From Frondihabitans peucedani (lineage in GTDB: Bacteria; Actinomycetota; Actinomycetes; Actinomycetales; Microbacteriaceae): 64,000 nt of DNA. Under the pieces are notes generated by a model. That model was given only the letters and a program-made list of their open reading frames with translations, was not told where the DNA came from and did not search any database. Every line of letters begins with the position of its first letter. Position 1 is the first letter of the stretch. Of this stretch, positions 40,383-50,316 are shown piece after piece. Position numbers and translations under genes: made by a program. The stretch is from assembly GCF_039537585.1 (NCBI RefSeq), contig NZ_BAABAU010000001.1, positions 930,001 through 994,000 of the forward strand, given 5' to 3'.

Positions 40383-40598
40383 TCAGGTCGACGCGCCGCT
40401 CTCGATCTCGTCGGCGAGGTCGTCGAGCCGCTCGGGCCGGACGCTGACGCCGCACTCCGCCAGGCGCTCGTCGAGCACGTGACCGGTGTCGCCCTCGAAG
40501 TTGCCGTGGACGATCTCGTCGCGCATCTCCTCGACGATCCTGGTGACGGTCTCCTCCTCGGACTCGTCGGGGACCGGGCCCCTCGGCTCGACCGTCAC
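40383..40598 (-). CDS. Small acidic protein coupled to the Vms1-like gene
   Basis: The 71-residue protein is strongly acidic (DESEEETVTRIVEEMRDEI, later DERLAECG and DDLADEIESG). Its GTG start overlaps the stop of the upstream gene as GTGA, a coupling that implies joint expression. No domain was recognised. The helical pattern with an HGNFEGDTGHVLDERL core suggests a small folded partner rather than a shadow frame. It may bind or regulate the Vms1/Rv2629-like protein. Confidence 0.62.
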   Translation of the reverse strand: MTVEPRGPVPDESEEETVTRIVEEMRDEIVHGNFEGDTGHVLDERLAECGVSVRPERLDDLADEIESGAST

Positions 40599-41737
40599 GC
40601 CGTGCCCCCCGCCGAGGGCGTCGCGGGGCCGATGGGCCAGCGGAGCAGGGCGCCGACACCGCTGTCGCCCGGCATCGATCCGGCGCTCGCCAGGACGACG
40701 GCGGCGTCGGTCAGGACGGCGGCCCGCACGAGGGCGGGAGCGGCCGGGGCCTCGCCCAGGACCGCCGCGCCGAGCGCCTCCTCCGGAGACGTCGCGACCC
40801 ACGGCACGTCGCCGAGCGCCAGGAGCGTCCGGTCCCCGAGCGCCTGCGGGTCGATGAGGAGGGTGTCGACCTGCGCCGCACCGAGCGCCGTCACGACCTC
40901 GCCGAGGCGCGAGGCGGCGGTGGCGTCTCCCCGGTTGAGGTGCGTGCGCAGGAGGTCGAGCGCGTCGTGGACGCGCGTGGCGAGAAGCCGGGCCAGGGCG
41001 ATGTCGACCTGCTCGACGAGCGCGTCGCTCGCCCGGGTGTCGGCGTCGACCATCGACAGGAGCGGCACGGTGGCCGGAGCCAGCTGCTCCGCGAGCAGCT
41101 GCCGGGCCTGGATGTCTCCGGCGACGACGACCAGCCGCGCCCTCGTCCGGCGGACGGCGTCGTCGATGGCGGTCGCCACCTCCTTGAGGTTCTGCCGCCA
41201 GAGCTCCTCCACGTGGTGCTGCACCCGGAGGCTGTCCCAGCCGCCGCTCGGCGACAGGTGCAGCGTGTCGGTGCGGCCCTGCACGTGCTGCTCCTCGTCG
41301 ACGCCCTCGTGTCCGAAGCGGTAGACGCGGAACCCGCCGCCGCCCTTGCCGACCTCGACCACGAGGAAGGCGACGTCCAGGGGCCGGTGAGCCAGCAGCG
41401 GCAGGACGTCGAGGACGGGGCCGTGCCCGAGGGTGTCGGGGAGCTTGGGCGGCCCCGGGAGGATCTCGTCGACGACGACCGCCCCCTCCTGCGCCACCAG
41501 GAACCGGCTCACCGGGGCGGCCACCCCGGGAGGCTCGATGAGCGCGTCGGCGACCACCTCGGCGTCCTGCTGCGGTGCGCCCGCCCGGGTCAGCGCCTCG
41601 ACGGCGCTCGTGCGGCGGCTGGACGCCAGACGCTGCGGGTCCTCGCGGTCCTCCGAGACGTCGGCGTAGGCCCAGGTCACGGCGGTCCCCTCGCGGAGCA
41701 GTCGGACGACGTCGGTCGTGGACAGGGCTGGGATCAC
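40595..41737 (-). CDS. Vms1/Ankzf1-like (Rv2629 family) putative peptidyl-tRNA hydrolase
   Basis: The 380-residue protein matches the actinobacterial Rv2629-like family, which is related to the eRF1-fold release factor domain of Vms1/ANKZF1. The central segment RRTRARLVVVAGDIQARQLLAEQL and later VDTLLIDPQALGDRTLLALGDV correspond to the release-factor-like core. The last 60 residues pair the AAVLTDAAVVLASAGSMPGD strand with GVGALLRW, the usual ending. In eukaryotes Vms1 frees stalled nascent chains from tRNA. The bacterial role, probably in dormancy or ribosome rescue, is inferred. GTG 41737 has GAGGAGGAAC directly upstream. A longer frame to 42160 overlaps the pectinesterase promoter and is rejected. 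Confidence 0.8.
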   Translation of the reverse strand: MIPALSTTDVVRLLREGTAVTWAYADVSEDREDPQRLASSRRTSAVEALTRAGAPQQDAEVVADALIEPPGVAAPVSRFLVAQEGAVVVDEILPGPPKLPDTLGHGPVLDVLPLLAHRPLDVAFLVVEVGKGGGGFRVYRFGHEGVDEEQHVQGRTDTLHLSPSGGWDSLRVQHHVEELWRQNLKEVATAIDDAVRRTRARLVVVAGDIQARQLLAEQLAPATVPLLSMVDADTRASDALVEQVDIALARLLATRVHDALDLLRTHLNRGDATAASRLGEVVTALGAAQVDTLLIDPQALGDRTLLALGDVPWVATSPEEALGAAVLGEAPAAPALVRAAVLTDAAVVLASAGSMPGDSGVGALLRWPIGPATPSAGGTA

Positions 41738-41858
41738 GGTTCCTCCTCGAGCGTTCGTGCGTGACACCCAACGCCCTGCGGGAGGACGCGGACCGGGCTT
41801 GACAAACGCGAGGAGGACCGTCTCGCCGGGAGGCACTGACGGGGCCGAGAGGTGAGGG

Positions 41859-41887: not shown

Positions 41888-41936
41888 GGGGACACGTCCT
41901 CCGCTTACCCGAGTCACGAGGACGAGATCACCCGAA

Positions 41937-41957
41937 TCAGCGATACCCGATCGCTGA
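41937..41957. promoter_or_regulatory. Inverted repeat in the leader of the giant pectinesterase gene
   Basis: TCAGCGAT, five bases, ATCGCTGA is a perfect 8+8 dyad about 45 bases after the predicted transcription start. It could be a repressor operator acting as a roadblock or a small RNA hairpin in the leader. The rest of 41738-42054, a 317-base stretch, holds only this element and the promoter. Confidence 0.5.
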
Positions 41958-42054
41958 GTGCGCCCTGTGGCACGCGTGTCCTCCACCCCGGAGGCAGGCG
42001 CAGTCCGGCGCGCTCTCGCTCGGTCGCCGCGCCTACCCGAAGGCACACTCCGCC

Positions 42055-45000
42055 ATGCCCGGACGCTCCTCCATGCCGTCTTCCCCCGCCCACGAGAACG
42101 ACGCGTCGCCCGCAAGCGATCCGACCGCACCGGTCCGCAGCGGTCGCCGACGGGCAGCACGCCCGTCCGGTCTCACCAGGCGGCGCGGTCTCGTCGTCGG
42201 CTCGGCGGTCGGCATCGCCGCTCTCGCCGGTGTCGCGATCCCGCTGCAGTCCGCGCTCGGTGCGCCGGACACGACGGCACCGTCGGCCCCGAGCAGCCTG
42301 GCGGCCTCCTACTTCGGCGGCGTCGGCACGATCCTGACCTGGGGCAGGGTGTCGGCCTCCGACCTCGCCACCTACCGCGTCTACCGCTCGTCGTCGACGA
42401 CCGTCACGACGGCGTCGACCCTCGTCTCGACCACCACGAGCCTCAAGATCACCGACCCCGCGGCCAGCGGCGGCTCGTCCTTCTCGTACGCGGTCGCCGC
42501 CGTCGACAAGACCGGCAACGTCTCGAAGCTCTCGAGCGTCAAGACGATCGTCGCGAAGGACACCACGAAGCCCGCGTCGCCGTCGAGCGTCAAGGCGACC
42601 GTCTCGGCATCCGGTGTCTCGCTCGACTGGGCCGACAACGACGAGCCCGATCTCAAGGGCTACTCCGTCTCGCGCAGCACCTCGTCGAGCGGCACCTACA
42701 CGCTCCTCACCGGCACCCTGCTCCAGACGTCGCAGTTCACCGACACGCAGGCTCCGTCGGGCGCGAAGTCGTACTACCGGATCACCGCGACCGACCTCAC
42801 CGGCAACGCCTCCTCGGCGGCGAGCACCAGCGCCACCCGTCCTGCCGGCGCCCCCGTCGCCCCTGCCGCGCCCTCGGGCTTCACGGCGAAGCTCGGCTCG
42901 AACGGCGTGCCGACCCTCTCGTGGAGCGCGTCGAGCGGCGCCACCGCGTACGTCCTCTCGCGCGGTGCGTCCACCACCGGACCCTTCACCCGCATCAACG
43001 CCTCCTCGGCCACCGCCACGACCTTCACCGACGCCGCAGCCCCCGCCGGCGCGACGGTCTTCTACACGCTCACCGCGCAGAACACGGTCGGCGTCAGCGC
43101 CGCCGTGACCGCGAGCATCGCCGTCCCCGGCGACACCACCCCGCCGAAGACCCCGTCGAGCCCCAAGGTCGTCGTCCTCGCCACCGGCGGCGTCACCGTC
43201 TCGTGGAAGGCCAACACCGAGGCCGACCTCGCCGGCTACCTGGTGACCAAGCGGAACGGCGACGAGGTCTACGTCCCCTACCTGCCGACGGGCGCGCAGA
43301 AGGCCCTGGTCGCGACCACCTTCACCGACGCCACCGTCGTCGAGGGCGACACCGACTACTACCGCATCCGCGCCGTCGACACCTCCGGGAACGCGTCCAG
43401 CTACCTCGCGGTCACGGCGAACAACCCGAACGTCGCCCCCGGCGCACCCGCCTCGCTCAAGGTGACGCAGGATGCCGCGGCCGGCCTCGACCTCGCCTGG
43501 ACGGCCCCGAAGGACCTCGACCTCGCCGGGTACTCGGTGTCGCGGAGCACGACCTCGTCGGGCACCTACGTGCTCCTCAAGACGATCTCGACGGCCGACG
43601 CGGGCGCCTCGCCGCGCTTCGTCGACACCAGCGCCCCGAAAGGCGTCACGGTCTACTACCGCGTGACCGCGCAGGATGCCACGGGCAACGTCTCGAAGGC
43701 CAGCAGCACCGTCTCGGGCACCTCGCTCACGACCCCCGTCCCGCTCCCGCTCGTGCAGACGGTCCTGACCGTCGGCCCGCAGGGCACCTTCTCGACCATC
43801 ACCGCCGCCCTGGCGTCGATCCCCTCCTCGTCGCTCGCCAACTACCGCATCGACATCGCCCCCGGCACCTACGACGAGTCGTTCGAGATCGACCAGCCGA
43901 ACGTGACCCTGCACGGCACGGGCGCAGCTCCCGGCGACGTCGTCATCAGCTCGGCACGCGCCTCCGGCAGCTCCGACCCCGACGAGCCCGAGGCCACCCT
44001 CGGCACCGCAGGCAGCGCCGTCGTCTACGTCACCGGCTCGAACGTCACGCTCGACCACCTGACCGTCGCCAACACCTTCGACGAGGCGGCGAACCCGCAG
44101 ATCACCAGTGCCCAGGCCGTCGCGCTCCGCGTCGAGGGCGACCGCTTCACGGCCGACACGGTCCGCCTCCTCGGCAACCAGGACACCCTGCTCGCCGACA
44201 CCCCGAAGCCCACCACCCGCATCCGCCAGTACTACGTCGACAGCTACCTCGAGGGCGACGTCGACTACCTGTTCGGCGCCGGCACCGCGGTGTTCCAGCG
44301 CGACACCTTCAAGTCGCTCGACCGCGGCAAGAGCAACAACGGCTACCTCACCGCCGCCAGCACCGACAAGGGCAGCAAGTACGGCTTCCTGATCACCGAC
44401 AGCAAGGTCGTGAGCAACGCCGCGGCCGGCACGATCAACCTCGGTCGCCCGTGGCACCCGAGCGCCGACCCCGACGCCCTGGCCTCCGTCGTCATCATGA
44501 ACACCTGGCTGCCGAAGGCCGTCGACACGGCCGCGCCCTGGGACGACATGGCCTCGACCAACAGCGCCGGCGTCAAGGTGAACTTCACCTGGCAGAGCGC
44601 CCGCTTCGCCGAGTTCGGCAACAGCGGCCCCGGAGCCACCGTCAACGCCAACCGTCCGCAGCTCTCCGCGAAGGACGCAGCGAACGCGACGCCTGAGAAG
44701 TACCTCGCCGGCAAGGACGGCTGGGACCCGGTGACCGCGGCCTCGACCGCCGTCCCGACGACCCCGACGAGCCTCGTCGCGGCCCCGGACTCCCGCGTCG
44801 TGCACCTCACCTGGAGCGACGACACCTCGGCCGCCGTGACCTCGTGGAACGTCTTCCGAGCCGACGAGACCGGAGCGTTCTCGAAGATCGCCTCCGTCGA
44901 CACCCCGACCTTCAGCGACACCTCCGTCGACAACGGCGCCACCTACCGCTACTACGTCGCCGCGGTCTCGCGCACCGGCGTCTCGTCGCTGCCCTCCGCC

Positions 45001-48000
45001 GAGGTCACCGCCGTCGTCGCCGCCGCGCCCCTCGTCACCGACATCACCGTCGACCCGAAGGGGACCTCCGACGGATCGACCCGCTTCACCTCGCTCGGCG
45101 ACGCGCTGGCAGCAGCGCCCGCCGGGACCGCCACCGACCCGACCGTCATCTCGCTCGCGGCCGGCCGCTACGCCGAGTACGACACGATCTCGAAGCCGTA
45201 CACGATCGTCGTCGGCGCCACCGGCCACGCCTCCGACGTGGTCATCACGGGCAACCGCGCCGCGGGCACCCCGACGGGCACCACGACGGCCGGCGTCGCC
45301 GACACCTACGGCACCTCCGGCAGCGCCACGCTCGTGATCACGGGCAACAACGTGCAGCTCCGGAGCCTCACGGTCGAGAACGCCTACGTCGAGGGCACCT
45401 ACCCCAACGGCCAGGCCGTCGCGCTCCGCACCACCGGCGACCGGCTGACCTACGAGAACGTCCGCCTCCTCGGCAACCAGGACACCTGGTACGCCAACAG
45501 CCCCTCCACCACGCAGCCCGCCCGCTCGTACTTCCACGGCGGCTACGTCGAGGGCGACGTCGACTTCGTCTTCGGGCGCGGGACCGTCGTCATCGACGAC
45601 TCGACGCTCAAGGCGCTCGACCACGGCACCTCGCCGAACGGCGCCGTCACCGCGGCCAGCACCGACCTGTCGCAGAGGTTCGGCTTCCTGATCACGGGCA
45701 GCCGCATCATCGGCAGCGCCCCCGACGGGTCGCAGAACCTCGGGCGCCCCTGGCAGCCCGGCAAGGCGCAGGCCGACGGCACCTCGGTCGCCGACACGAA
45801 CGCCGTCGCCCAGGTCGTCGTGCGCGACACCTGGCTCGGACCGGTCGTGAGCTCCACCCAGACCTGGACCAACATGGTCAACAGCGGGATCACGACGACC
45901 TGGCAGAGCGCGCGCTTCGCCGAGTACGACAACTCGGGCCCCGGGGCCGGAGTCTCCGCCACGAGGCCCCAGCTGACCGACGCTCAGGCGCCGGGCTACA
46001 CGCAGGCGACCTACCTGGCCGGGACGGACGGCTGGAACCCCGTCGCCGATCCTGCTGCCGACGCCGCGCCCTCGACCGTCACCGGTCTCGTGGCGACGCC
46101 CGCCGAGAAGCAGGTCGGCCTCTCGTGGGACGACTCGGTCGAGGCCGACGTCACCGGCTACCGCGTCTACCGCGCGGCAGGATCCGACACGGTGTCCGCC
46201 GACACGGCCCACCTCGTCGCCGAGGTCGCCAAGCCGACCTTCCTCGACAAGGGCCTCGTGAACGGCACCGAGTACCACTACCTCGTCGTCGCGGTGACCC
46301 GCACCGGTCTCCCCTCCGACCCGGCGGCCGCCCAGGCGACCCCCGCCGTCACGCCGCTCGTCGCCGACCTCACGGTCGCCGCCGACGGATCCGGCGACTA
46401 CACGACGCTCCAGCAGGCCCTCACCGCGATCCCGGCCGGGACGTCGACGAAGCCGAAGGTCATCCTCGTGAAGCCCGGCACGTACAAGGGCGTGGCCACG
46501 TCGGCCAAGGCCAACGTCATCATCGCCGGTACCACAGGCGACGCCCGCGACGTCGTCCTGACCTTCGACAACGCCAACGGCACCGCCTCCTCCGCGGCCA
46601 CCTGCCCGACGGTCACCGCCGCGACCTGCGGCACGGCCGGCAGCGCGACCGTCACCCTCACCGGTGCCGGTGTGCAGGTGCGCGACCTGACGATCCGCAA
46701 CTCGTTCGACAGCGCCTCGCACCCCGAGATCGGCAACTTCAACACGCAGGCCGTGGCTCTCCGCGCGACCGGCGACCGGCAGGTCTTCTCGAACGTCCGC
46801 CTGCTCGGCGTCCAGGACACCCTGAACGCCGACGCCAACGGCAACATCTCGGCGGACGGCTCGGGCTACCCGCGCCAGTACTACGTGAACAGCTTCATCG
46901 AGGGCAACGTCGACTTCGTCTTCGGGCGGGCCACCGCGGTCTTCGACCGGACGACGTTCCACGCGACCGCTCACAACGGAGGCACGATCTTCGCGCCGAG
47001 CACGGCGAGCAAGGCGCACGGCTACCTGGTCGTCGACAGCAGGATCGCCAGCGACAACGACGGCTCCTTCGCCCTCGGTCGTCCGTGGCGATCCTGGAGC
47101 GACGGCGTCTACGCCGACATCTCCCGCGGCGAGACGACGATCAAGAACACCTGGATGTCCGCGGGCATCTCGACCTCGCAGCCCTGGGTCGACTTCGCCC
47201 CGAACGTCTGGACCGACGGCCGCGTCGCCGAGTACGGCACCACCGGCCCCGGCGCGACGATCACGCCGAACCGCCCGCAGCTGACGGCGGCCGCGGCCGC
47301 CCAGGCCACCCCGGCGGCGTACCTCGCCGGGACGGACGGCTGGAGCCCCCTCGTCGACGCCGCCACCGCCGACACCGCACCGACCGCTCCGGTCGGCCTC
47401 GCGGCCGGCGCGGGCAGCTCGCAGGCGGTCCTCACCTGGCAGGAGAACACGGAGGCCGACGTGGTCGGCTACCGGGTCTACCGCCAGGGCACCGTGATCG
47501 CGACGACGAGCACGGCCGGCTACACGGCCACCGGTCTCACGAACGGTCAGGCGTACGACTTCCAGGTCACGGCGATCGACGCCGCGGGCCACGAGTCGGC
47601 TGCCTCTGCCGCCGTCACCGTGACTCCGAGCCTCAGGATCGACGCCACCGTCCAGGCGGGCGGCACCTATCCGACCCTCCAGTCGGCGGTCGACGCCGCG
47701 ACGGGCAGCTCGCCCTGGGTGATCAAGGTCGCGCCGGGCACCTACACCGGCACCACGACGATCGCCCGGTCGAACGTCACGATCCTCGGCGGCGGCACCT
47801 CCTCGTCCGACGTGACCCTCACGAACCCGACCGCCACCGCGACCCTCAGCATCACCGGGTCGAACGTGACCGTGTCGAACCTCGCGGTCGAGAACACCTC
47901 CGGCGTCAGCAACGGGCCGGCCGTGTCGATGACGGGCGACAAGATCCTGTTCACCGGCACGTCGCTCACGGCGACCGACCGAACCGTCTGGGCCGATGTG

Positions 48001-50316
48001 CCCACCGCGGGTGCGACCAGCCGCCAGATGATCGAGTCCTCGACGATCCGGGGCGCGACGAACATCGTGCTCGGCCGGGCGACCCTCGTCATCCACTCCA
48101 CGACGATCACGCCCACCCGCACCTCGGGCACGGTCTTCATCCCGTCGACGACGGCCACCGGAGGCAACGGGTTCCTCGTGATCGGCTCCTCGATCACCCC
48201 GGCGGCCGGTGTCAGCGACGTCCGTCTCGGCGGTCCCTACGCGCAGGGAACGACGACATCGACCAACGCGCCGCAGACGGTCATCCGCGACTCGACCCTC
48301 GCTGCGGGCATCAAGTCGGCTCCCTGGCAGGACTTCAACGGGTATGCCTGGGTCAACGCGCGGTTCGCCGAGTACGGCAACACGGGTGCCGGCTCGACCG
48401 TCACTGCGTCGAGGCCGCAGCTCTCCCCCGCCGACTCCGTGAGCGTCACGGTCGCGAACTGGCTCGGGGCCGCCACCTGGTACCCGGCCGTCGCCGATCC
48501 TGCGACGCCCGCCGACGTCACGGCCCCCGCGCCCGTCTCGGGCCTGACCTCGTCGACCGGCGACCGGAGCGCCACGCTCACGTGGACCGCTCCCGCCGAC
48601 GCGGACCTCGCCGGCTACTCGGTGTACCGGGCGACCGGCTCCTCGGTCACGCCCTCGCAGGCCACCCTCGTCGGCTCGGTCGGCCTCGTGTCGACCTTCA
48701 CCGACACCGGCCTCGCGAACGGCACCGCCTACACCTACGCCGTCGTGGCGCAGGATGCGTCGGGCAACCGGGCGACACCGGTCACCGTGGGCGCCGCTCC
48801 CGCCGACACCGCTCCCCCGGCCGTCCCGAAGGGCCTGGCCGGCGCGGCCGCCGACACCAAGGCGATCCTGTCGTGGACGGCGGACACCGACTCCGACCTC
48901 GCCGGCTACGCGGTGTACCGCGACGGCGTCAGGATCTCGTCCGGTCTCCTGACCGCGACGACGCTCACCGACACCGGCCTCGCGAACGGCACCGACTACT
49001 CGTACCGGGTGACGGCCGTCGACACGGCGGGCAACGAGTCGGCGCAGTCGGCTCCGGTCGTGGTGACGCCGGCACCCGGCGACAACGTCGCCCCCGCCGT
49101 GCCGTCGAAGGTCACGACGACGCTCGGCCGCGGCTCCGTCACGGTCGGCTGGGCCGCCGACACCGACTCGGACCTCGCGGGCTACGACGTCTACCGCACG
49201 ACGTCGAGCCTCGGGGCCTCCAGCCTCGTCGGCTCGGTCGGCGCCGGTGCGACCTCGTACACCGACCCGTCGGTGCTGATCGGCACGACGTACTCGTACT
49301 CGGTCGTCGCGAAGGACGGCTCCGGCAACGCCTCGGCAGCCTCGGCGACCGCGCAGGCCACGCCGATCAAGGTCGACTACGTCGTCGCGGCCGACGGATC
49401 GGGCGACGCCACGACCCTCCAGGCCGTCCTCGGTCAGGTCGACGCGAACGGCGCGCTCGTCGCAGCGAGCCCCGGACTCCTGGCGAACAACGCCGACTAC
49501 GCGAGCCAGGGCTACCGCACGATCCTCGTCGAGCCGGGCACCTACACCGGCCCGGTAGTCAGCGGAAACCGCTACGGGGTCAACATCGTCGGCGCGACCG
49601 GCAACCCCTCCGACGTGGTCATCACCGCGCCGGGCGGCACGGTCGCCGCGATGACCGTGTCGGGCAACCAGTGGACCTTCCGGGCCCTGACCCTGAAGAG
49701 CGTCGCCGCGACCGCGGGCGCGCAGGCCACGGCGATCCAGATCAAGTCGGGCGACAGGCAGATACTCGACAACGTCCGGCTCCTCGGCGACAAGCAGACG
49801 ATCCTCGCCTCCACGGCGAACTCGACGACGTTCAGCCGGATCTACATCACCGGCTCGTACATCGAGGGCGGCGCCGACCTCCTGCTCGGCCGCGCTGTCA
49901 CCGTCGTCGATCGGAGCACGATCCACGTGCTCGATCGACCCGGAGCCTCGCTGACCGACTCGTCGGTCGCGAGCGCCTCGCCGTTCGGATTCCTCGTCAC
50001 CGACAGCAGGATCGTCACGGACGGAGCCGCGAACACCATCTCGCTCGGTCGCCCGTACTCGACCCAGGGCCAGGCGCAGGTCGTCGTCCGCAACACCGAC
50101 CTCGGCGCCGGAATCATCCAGAACAAGACCTGGAACGACTGGGACGCCGTGACGACCTGGACCGCAGGGCGCTTCTCGGAGTACCAGAACACCGGCCCGG
50201 GTGCCGCGATCGTCATGCCGTCGCTCCGCCCCCAGCTGTCGGACGCTCAGGCGCGGGGCTTCACGGCTCAGACGTACCTCGCGGGCACCGACTCCTGGAA
50301 CCCGACCGGCCGATGA
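42055..50316 (+). CDS. Giant secreted protein with five pectin methylesterase and eleven FN3 modules
   Basis: The 2,753-residue protein begins with a long basic region (TRRRGLVVG, Tat-like) and a hydrophobic export segment near residues 45-65. Five FN3-like modules (about 70-560) precede PME1 (570-895). Then follow FN3, PME2 (993-1325), FN3, PME3 (1440-1765), FN3, PME4 (1863-2145), three FN3 and PME5 (2441-2753). Catalytic Asp, Asp, Arg are complete in PME1 (710, 737, 798), PME2 (1143, 1170, 1231) and PME3 (1588, 1620, 1676). PME4 has Arg1976, Asn2003, Gly2060 instead. PME5 has Gln2581 but keeps Asp2608 and Arg2666. PME removes methyl esters from homogalacturonan, preparing pectin for lyases. 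Its stop overlaps the start of the anchored protein gene. Confidence 0.93.
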   Translation: MPGRSSMPSSPAHENDASPASDPTAPVRSGRRRAARPSGLTRRRGLVVGSAVGIAALAGVAIPLQSALGAPDTTAPSAPSSLAASYFGGVGTILTWGRVSASDLATYRVYRSSSTTVTTASTLVSTTTSLKITDPAASGGSSFSYAVAAVDKTGNVSKLSSVKTIVAKDTTKPASPSSVKATVSASGVSLDWADNDEPDLKGYSVSRSTSSSGTYTLLTGTLLQTSQFTDTQAPSGAKSYYRITATDLTGNASSAASTSATRPAGAPVAPAAPSGFTAKLGSNGVPTLSWSASSGATAYVLSRGASTTGPFTRINASSATATTFTDAAAPAGATVFYTLTAQNTVGVSAAVTASIAVPGDTTPPKTPSSPKVVVLATGGVTVSWKANTEADLAGYLVTKRNGDEVYVPYLPTGAQKALVATTFTDATVVEGDTDYYRIRAVDTSGNASSYLAVTANNPNVAPGAPASLKVTQDAAAGLDLAWTAPKDLDLAGYSVSRSTTSSGTYVLLKTISTADAGASPRFVDTSAPKGVTVYYRVTAQDATGNVSKASSTVSGTSLTTPVPLPLVQTVLTVGPQGTFSTITAALASIPSSSLANYRIDIAPGTYDESFEIDQPNVTLHGTGAAPGDVVISSARASGSSDPDEPEATLGTAGSAVVYVTGSNVTLDHLTVANTFDEAANPQITSAQAVALRVEGDRFTADTVRLLGNQDTLLADTPKPTTRIRQYYVDSYLEGDVDYLFGAGTAVFQRDTFKSLDRGKSNNGYLTAASTDKGSKYGFLITDSKVVSNAAAGTINLGRPWHPSADPDALASVVIMNTWLPKAVDTAAPWDDMASTNSAGVKVNFTWQSARFAEFGNSGPGATVNANRPQLSAKDAANATPEKYLAGKDGWDPVTAASTAVPTTPTSLVAAPDSRVVHLTWSDDTSAAVTSWNVFRADETGAFSKIASVDTPTFSDTSVDNGATYRYYVAAVSRTGVSSLPSAEVTAVVAAAPLVTDITVDPKGTSDGSTRFTSLGDALAAAPAGTATDPTVISLAAGRYAEYDTISKPYTIVVGATGHASDVVITGNRAAGTPTGTTTAGVADTYGTSGSATLVITGNNVQLRSLTVENAYVEGTYPNGQAVALRTTGDRLTYENVRLLGNQDTWYANSPSTTQPARSYFHGGYVEGDVDFVFGRGTVVIDDSTLKALDHGTSPNGAVTAASTDLSQRFGFLITGSRIIGSAPDGSQNLGRPWQPGKAQADGTSVADTNAVAQVVVRDTWLGPVVSSTQTWTNMVNSGITTTWQSARFAEYDNSGPGAGVSATRPQLTDAQAPGYTQATYLAGTDGWNPVADPAADAAPSTVTGLVATPAEKQVGLSWDDSVEADVTGYRVYRAAGSDTVSADTAHLVAEVAKPTFLDKGLVNGTEYHYLVVAVTRTGLPSDPAAAQATPAVTPLVADLTVAADGSGDYTTLQQALTAIPAGTSTKPKVILVKPGTYKGVATSAKANVIIAGTTGDARDVVLTFDNANGTASSAATCPTVTAATCGTAGSATVTLTGAGVQVRDLTIRNSFDSASHPEIGNFNTQAVALRATGDRQVFSNVRLLGVQDTLNADANGNISADGSGYPRQYYVNSFIEGNVDFVFGRATAVFDRTTFHATAHNGGTIFAPSTASKAHGYLVVDSRIASDNDGSFALGRPWRSWSDGVYADISRGETTIKNTWMSAGISTSQPWVDFAPNVWTDGRVAEYGTTGPGATITPNRPQLTAAAAAQATPAAYLAGTDGWSPLVDAATADTAPTAPVGLAAGAGSSQAVLTWQENTEADVVGYRVYRQGTVIATTSTAGYTATGLTNGQAYDFQVTAIDAAGHESAASAAVTVTPSLRIDATVQAGGTYPTLQSAVDAATGSSPWVIKVAPGTYTGTTTIARSNVTILGGGTSSSDVTLTNPTATATLSITGSNVTVSNLAVENTSGVSNGPAVSMTGDKILFTGTSLTATDRTVWADVPTAGATSRQMIESSTIRGATNIVLGRATLVIHSTTITPTRTSGTVFIPSTTATGGNGFLVIGSSITPAAGVSDVRLGGPYAQGTTTSTNAPQTVIRDSTLAAGIKSAPWQDFNGYAWVNARFAEYGNTGAGSTVTASRPQLSPADSVSVTVANWLGAATWYPAVADPATPADVTAPAPVSGLTSSTGDRSATLTWTAPADADLAGYSVYRATGSSVTPSQATLVGSVGLVSTFTDTGLANGTAYTYAVVAQDASGNRATPVTVGAAPADTAPPAVPKGLAGAAADTKAILSWTADTDSDLAGYAVYRDGVRISSGLLTATTLTDTGLANGTDYSYRVTAVDTAGNESAQSAPVVVTPAPGDNVAPAVPSKVTTTLGRGSVTVGWAADTDSDLAGYDVYRTTSSLGASSLVGSVGAGATSYTDPSVLIGTTYSYSVVAKDGSGNASAASATAQATPIKVDYVVAADGSGDATTLQAVLGQVDANGALVAASPGLLANNADYASQGYRTILVEPGTYTGPVVSGNRYGVNIVGATGNPSDVVITAPGGTVAAMTVSGNQWTFRALTLKSVAATAGAQATAIQIKSGDRQILDNVRLLGDKQTILASTANSTTFSRIYITGSYIEGGADLLLGRAVTVVDRSTIHVLDRPGASLTDSSVASASPFGFLVTDSRIVTDGAANTISLGRPYSTQGQAQVVVRNTDLGAGIIQNKTWNDWDAVTTWTAGRFSEYQNTGPGAAIVMPSLRPQLSDAQARGFTAQTYLAGTDSWNPTGR
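48698..48994 (+). repeat. Recent FN3 module duplication within the pectinesterase gene
   Basis: Thirty consecutive bases at 48698-48727 recur exactly at 48965-48994, an offset of 267 bases or 89 codons, equal to one FN3 module. The neighbouring A-D-L-A-G-Y segments are also nearly the same at DNA level. This marks a recent tandem duplication of the linker modules between PME4 and PME5. Confidence 0.8.

Follow-up and report, generated by a model that had tools for sequence, protein, structure and literature searches.

One gene in the window (the whole stretch of 64,000 nucleotides that was analysed) encodes an array of five pectin methylesterase (PME) modules. Three of these, PME1-3, are apparently working modules; the other two, PME4 and PME5, have lost the catalytic acid and are most likely not enzymes. 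PME4 and PME5 belong to an old, retained, non-catalytic lineage derived from PME which, in the sampled genomes, was found only inside PME arrays. The lineage arose before the host genera separated and has been kept in PME arrays since.

The array gene, its neighbours and its orthologues

The array gene is a single stop-free frame of 2753 codons. A Pfam scan of its product returned five separate Pectinesterase stretches (CE8/PF01095; E 4e-115 for the protein) together with FN3 domains, of which 11 were counted using a profile built from the protein's own FN3 domains (Table 1). Each of PME1-3 scored 99-109 bits against PF01095, and PME4 and PME5 scored 55 and 57 bits, with a cut-off of 27. In a profile search of the 3.69-Mb genome, PF01095 matches were confined to this gene.

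Table 1. Features of the array gene and of the gene that overlaps its end (window coordinates unless residues are given)
Feature	Position	Strand	Basis
Five-module pectin methylesterase array, 2753 aa	42055..50316	+	Open frame, five PF01095 stretches, FN3, nine orthologues
Secretion-signal-like stretch, N-terminal	array protein, about residues 40-70	+	By eye from sequence
FN3 domains 1-5	42271..43722	+	FN3 profile, 71-97 bits
PME1, catalytic set complete: Q709 D710 D737 R798 W800	43753..44736	+	Alignment
FN3 domain 6	44746..45009	+	FN3 profile
PME2, catalytic set complete: Q1142 D1143 D1170 R1231 W1233	45037..46047	+	Alignment
FN3 domain 7	46063..46338	+	FN3 profile
PME3, catalytic set complete: Q1587 D1588 D1620 R1676 W1678	46351..47355	+	Alignment
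FN3 domain 8	47374..47622	+	FN3 profile
PME4, putatively non-catalytic, R-type: D1975 R1976, N2003, G2060, Y2062; T109 loop deleted	47632..48492	+	Alignment, AF2
FN3 domains 9-11	48520..49350	+	FN3 profile
PME5, putatively non-catalytic, K-type: K2580 Q2581, Y2668; D2608 and R2666 kept; T109 loop deleted	49360..50310	+	Alignment, AF2
Probable partner gene, 488 aa	50313..51779	+	ATG overlaps array stop by 4 bases (ATGA)

The sequence-only reading of this DNA had proposed one open frame with five PME modules, of which PME1-3 keep QDT, DxxFG and LGRPW with both aspartates and the arginine, and FN3 domains acting as spacers. The frame and the modules were recovered as described, with QDT at residues 709, 1142 and 1587 and LGRPW at 796, 1229 and 1674. 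FN3 domains do lie between modules (PME1-3 are each followed by one, and three separate PME4 from PME5), but a role as spacers only does not hold, since five of the eleven are N-terminal of PME1.

On the opposite strand of the array a 2670-codon open frame (41914-49926) was noted, almost certainly a by-product of the high G+C coding sequence. Just upstream, also on the minus strand, lies a gene for a bacterial archaeo-eukaryotic release factor family protein (baeRF_family2; 40595-41764). No pectin-degradation cluster was seen around the array in the window; its neighbours include a DUF2071 protein, the baeRF-family protein and an aldo/keto-reductase-like protein. Neither PL1 (PF00544) nor GH28 (PF00295) was detected in the genome to which the window belongs, with controls that worked; the bacterium may therefore free methanol and alter the wall instead of breaking pectin down.

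The gene overlapping the array stop encodes a product with a signal-like N-terminus, a Ser/Gly/Pro-rich linker and a C-terminal hydrophobic segment followed by a basic tail, for which a Pfam search gave no family. It is a probable membrane-anchored partner and a good candidate for anchoring at the cell surface. Close homologues (E<1e-50) were present in 6 of 300 genomes surveyed within the family, each of which has the five-module array; in five of them the homologue follows the array immediately, and in Amnibacterium flavum it is about 7 kb off. The partner is not essential for the array, because four of the ten array genomes lack it. The genes next to the homologue in G048 showed no clear second polysaccharide system.

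PME was present in 15 of the 300 Microbacteriaceae genomes surveyed, and five PME matches were present in ten of these, including that of the window. Nine of the arrays are in one frame of about 2700-2960 codons; the tenth (G034) has an in-frame TGA. Named carriers are Frondihabitans sp. Leaf304, A. flavum, Frigoribacterium endophyticum and Amnibacterium kyonggiense, with Leaf304 the closest named relative (84% identity in the best segment). Module order is identical in the nine other genomes, which represent several genera, and several of these assemblies consist of only one or two contigs. The sequence-only reading had named a frameshift or an assembly artefact in the repeats as what would overturn it. 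Given an identical arrangement of the five modules in nine other assemblies, with a TGA in only one of them, the gene is neither frameshifted nor a mis-assembled repeat.

The TGA of G034 (L038) takes precisely the place of the Trp of LGRPW in PME3 and splits an array that is intact in all else, in a genome of one contig; the arrays of its close relatives G167 and G260 are intact. In a search of plasmid records 68 had PME matches; among the best matches listed these were single places of about 900-1800 bases, and no array was seen.

Residue losses and the lineage of PME4 and PME5

Residues are numbered below as in PemA, and subsites were mapped using the PemA subsites in Table 3 of PMC10530356. 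Gln153, Gln177, Asp178, Asp199 and Arg267 are kept in each of PME1-3 in 10/10 orthologues, aligned over their full length, as is Trp269 apart from PME3 of G034, the site of the TGA; in all orthologues these modules also retain most of the -1 subsite alongside the catalytic residues.

The catalytic Asp178 with Gln177 is found in none of the ten PME4 modules and in none of the ten PME5 modules. In PME4, Asp178 is replaced by Arg and Trp269 by Tyr, while Gln153, Arg219 and the T109 loop are missing, in all ten orthologues; Asp199 to Asn and Arg267 to Gly occur in four, only in Frondihabitans, Frigoribacterium and A. flavum. In PME5, residues 177-178 read Lys-Gln, Gly-Arg or Gln-Lys, so that the position and kind of the basic residue vary while its basic character is constant; Tyr stands at 269 and the T109 loop is absent. 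The losses claimed by the sequence-only reading (Arg1976, Asn2003 and Gly2060 in PME4, Gln2581 for the first Asp in PME5) were found at exactly those residues, and the absence of Asp178 from these two modules in every orthologue lends support to its view that both are catalytically dead. PME5 of the window departs further than had been noted, with Gln177 replaced by Lys2580 and Trp269 by Tyr2668; its second Asp (2608) and its Arg (2666) are intact.

Searches of the family and of the order gave three more arrays with dead modules. That of G758 (L095), from another family of the order, has PME1-4 without PME5, and its modules place in or beside position clades 1-4 in the tree. In G810 (L096), of the same genus, two active modules precede a C-terminal dead module of the K-type. 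Within the family, G134 has a K-type dead module first, two active modules, and then one with Asp178 replaced by Asn. The G134 protein (L039; 725-9211) is 2828 aa long with, by eye, PA14-like repeats, FN3 and a C-terminal SGNH-type esterase-like domain among its non-PME parts. In G165 (L046) and G177 (L047), a single PME appears by eye to be fused to a C-terminal SGNH-type (rhamnogalacturonan acetylesterase-like) domain.

Each array position from 1 to 5 formed its own clade in the module trees (SH-aLRT 98-100), which places the divergence of the five modules before that of the host genera; homogenisation of the modules by gene conversion was ruled out by the same separation. The dead modules fall into an R-type clade (PME4 with that of G758; support 100/100) and a K-type clade (PME5, G810 and G134; 100/97). 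The two types share one branch (bootstrap 94, SH-aLRT 81), a join whose support long-branch attraction could inflate. Two side observations concern G758: it and G810 are two species of one genus with differently built arrays, and its module 3 is nested inside Microbacteriaceae PME3, which hints at horizontal transfer.

Lys or Arg at 177 or 178 was found in 23/23 dead modules of the R- and K-types and in 0/58 active modules, and the same counts apply to Tyr in place of Trp269. The T109 loop has 5-7 residues in the 23 dead modules and 13-28 in the 58 active ones, with no overlap. Asp178 is missing from all 23, and Asp199 and Arg267 are both kept in 19. Loss was therefore stepwise, the acid going first and in common and the rest later, in one PME4 branch. 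Outside arrays no dead PME domain was found: the 25 full-length PME modules taken from other parts of the order all keep Gln-Asp, Asp and Arg.

These data bear on a rival reading, in which tandem duplication left behind dead modules that are now decaying and are tolerated beside three active copies. The dead modules are more divergent than the active ones (121 and 153 columns conserved in at least nine of ten orthologues, against 200-229), as decay would have it, and one lineage went on to lose Asp199 and Arg267 in PME4 after Asp178. Between the window and Leaf304, dN in PME4 and PME5 (0.095-0.12) is about twice the 0.05 of the active modules, offset by a higher dS. Yet dN/dS of PME4 and PME5 was far under 1 in all six pairwise Nei-Gojobori comparisons (0.16-0.35), within the range of PME1-3 and mostly under that of the FN3 parts. 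Both modules are kept in 10/10 arrays across several genera with no stop inside either, and the dead types are common to the differently built arrays of G134, G758 and G810. PME4 and PME5 are under purifying selection and are retained rather than decaying; recent decay was ruled out by dN/dS together with the shared, old loss, and the leftover reading is considered highly improbable.

Predicted fold and possible role of the dead modules

PME4 and PME5 are predicted still to fold as complete PME beta-helices, as the sequence-only reading had expected. AlphaFold2 gave a full beta-helix for each (pLDDT 93.1 and 90.3), a fold call that leans on the active modules, because the input alignments held active PMEs and modules and so favoured the PME fold. 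The best solved match to both models was PDB 2nsp, by its title the PemA D178A mutant crystallised with a bound hexasaccharide; carrot and tomato PME were also among the best matches.

The groove itself has fared differently in the two modules. Nearly every canonical pectin subsite is gone from PME4 (T109, Q153, F202, R219 and W269), so any contact of PME4 with pectin would have to be new. About half of the groove is kept in PME5, where T109, F202 and W269 are gone and the rest is largely present (Gln153 8/10, Asp199 10/10, Arg219 8/10, Arg267 10/10). It is improbable that these modules are changed rather than dead, with PME5 and the PME4 forms that have Asp199 and Arg267 hydrolysing an ester by another mechanism or on another substrate. 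The retention of Asp199 and Arg267 in 19 of 23 dead modules, and of Gln153 and Arg219 in most PME5 modules, would suit such an activity; against it, the catalytic acid is gone from every one, PME4 of the window also lacks Asp199 and Arg267, and the hexasaccharide held by the PemA mutant fits a dead enzyme.

By sequence, the dead modules are non-catalytic modules joined to a carbohydrate-active enzyme. Loss of Asp178 alone does not abolish binding, because PemA D178A holds its hexasaccharide. Pectin binding by the dead modules, the role suggested in the sequence-only reading as a means of keeping the active modules on the polymer, cannot be assumed, however, because beetle polygalacturonases that are catalytically dead proved unable to bind it (PMC8213348). 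Net charge across the orthologues is +3 to -9 in PME4 and PME5 against -5 to -19 in PME1-3, a change that would fit modules binding de-esterified pectin. Alternatively, the basic residue gained may simply form a salt bridge with Asp199 where that remains (6/10 PME4, 10/10 PME5). The case that PME4 and PME5 bind pectin, with some preference for the de-esterified chain, is judged about evenly balanced.

De-esterification of wall pectin controls both the methanol supply on leaves and the stiffness of the wall. In the mechanism proposed here, the array would be a secreted multimodular pectin methylesterase of a leaf-associated bacterium in which PME1-3 remove methyl groups from pectin while PME4 and PME5 hold the array on the polymer or orient it there. 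Contact would be made through the former active-site cleft, where the Gln-Asp pair now carries Lys or Arg, with acidic galacturonan. The active modules could then work along the tethered chain with the FN3 rods as spacers, and the overlapping downstream gene would provide a membrane-anchored partner at the cell surface. On plant surfaces the likely outcome would be methanol release and exposed carboxylates, with no depolymerisation. Taken whole, the model of three de-esterifying modules and an old non-catalytic lineage that holds or orients the array on acidic, de-esterified galacturonan is given an even chance. A more specific form of it, a charge swap, would make the dead modules a new, CE8-derived class of carbohydrate-binding module whose Lys/Arg-bearing old active site binds the carboxylates made by PME1-3, the array anchoring on de-esterified stretches and working outward in blocks; this form is regarded as unlikely.

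The dead modules might also be structural: as stiff beta-helix rods they could set the spacing or presentation of the active modules and lend stability to the C-terminal half, or they could dock the membrane-anchored partner, in each case without touching pectin. In keeping with such a role, the predicted PME fold is whole although the pectin groove, above all in PME4, is not; FN3 domains already serve as spacers; and the array gene is overlapped by the gene for the putative membrane-anchored partner, which co-occurs with it. A plain spacer, by contrast, needs neither the Lys/Arg and Tyr replacements seen in all 23 modules nor separate R- and K-types, and the four array genomes without the partner still keep PME4 and PME5. 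A structural role is possible, though somewhat unlikely.

Least probable is that the dead modules are decoys for a plant PME inhibitor or for defence proteins. No plant PME inhibitor is known to act on a bacterial PME, and nothing in the sequence points to a decoy. The dead polygalacturonases of beetles do play a part in the digestion of pectin and bind PGIP-like proteins of plants, as a decoy might, but classical inhibitors did not target the beetle pseudoenzyme (PMC8213348).

With this array it can be asked directly whether an esterase that has lost its activity can turn into the binding component of an active one. The three-part signature (Lys/Arg at 177/178, Tyr at 269 and a short T109 loop) provides a handle for finding more dead modules, and the PF01095 profile keeps labelling modules like PME4 and PME5 as pectinesterase, though they are most likely non-enzymes.

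Comparison with known systems

A search of the open-licence literature gave no account of CE8 domains arrayed in tandem, nor of a dead CE8 lineage that is conserved. PemA of Dickeya dadantii (CE8; PDB 1qjv, 2nsp, 2ntb) belongs to the same family and has the same beta-helix fold, and PME1-3 resemble it in having Gln153, Gln177, Asp178, Asp199, Arg267 and Trp269. PemA is a single catalytic domain, whereas the array has five modules per chain, two of them without Asp178 and the T109 loop. YbhC of E. coli (3grh), a non-canonical CE8 relative, was the fourth fold match for both PME4 and PME5; it differs in being a single-domain outer-membrane lipoprotein outside any array.

The leaf-beetle polygalacturonase pseudoenzymes are likewise dead relatives of pectinases kept alongside active ones, but they are separate insect proteins of GH28 without pectin binding, and here the dead modules share a chain with the active copies (PMC8213348). 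The PmeC5-type PMEs of Butyrivibrio resemble the array as large secreted multidomain PMEs (about 2000-2200 aa) with extra domains that are thought to bind the wall; they combine a PME domain with a PL9 lyase and wall-binding domains, and tandem or dead PME modules are not described in the available part of the source (PMC12109409). AlgE1, a mannuronan C-5 epimerase of Azotobacter, has two catalytic modules per secreted chain acting on one uronan chain, and its non-catalytic binding modules (R-modules) raise activity; the analogy is functional only, as the enzyme family is another one and the R-modules are not dead copies of catalytic modules (PMC12269086). Multidomain PMEs (PMC12109409) and multi-module uronan enzymes with binding modules (PMC12269086) are already known.
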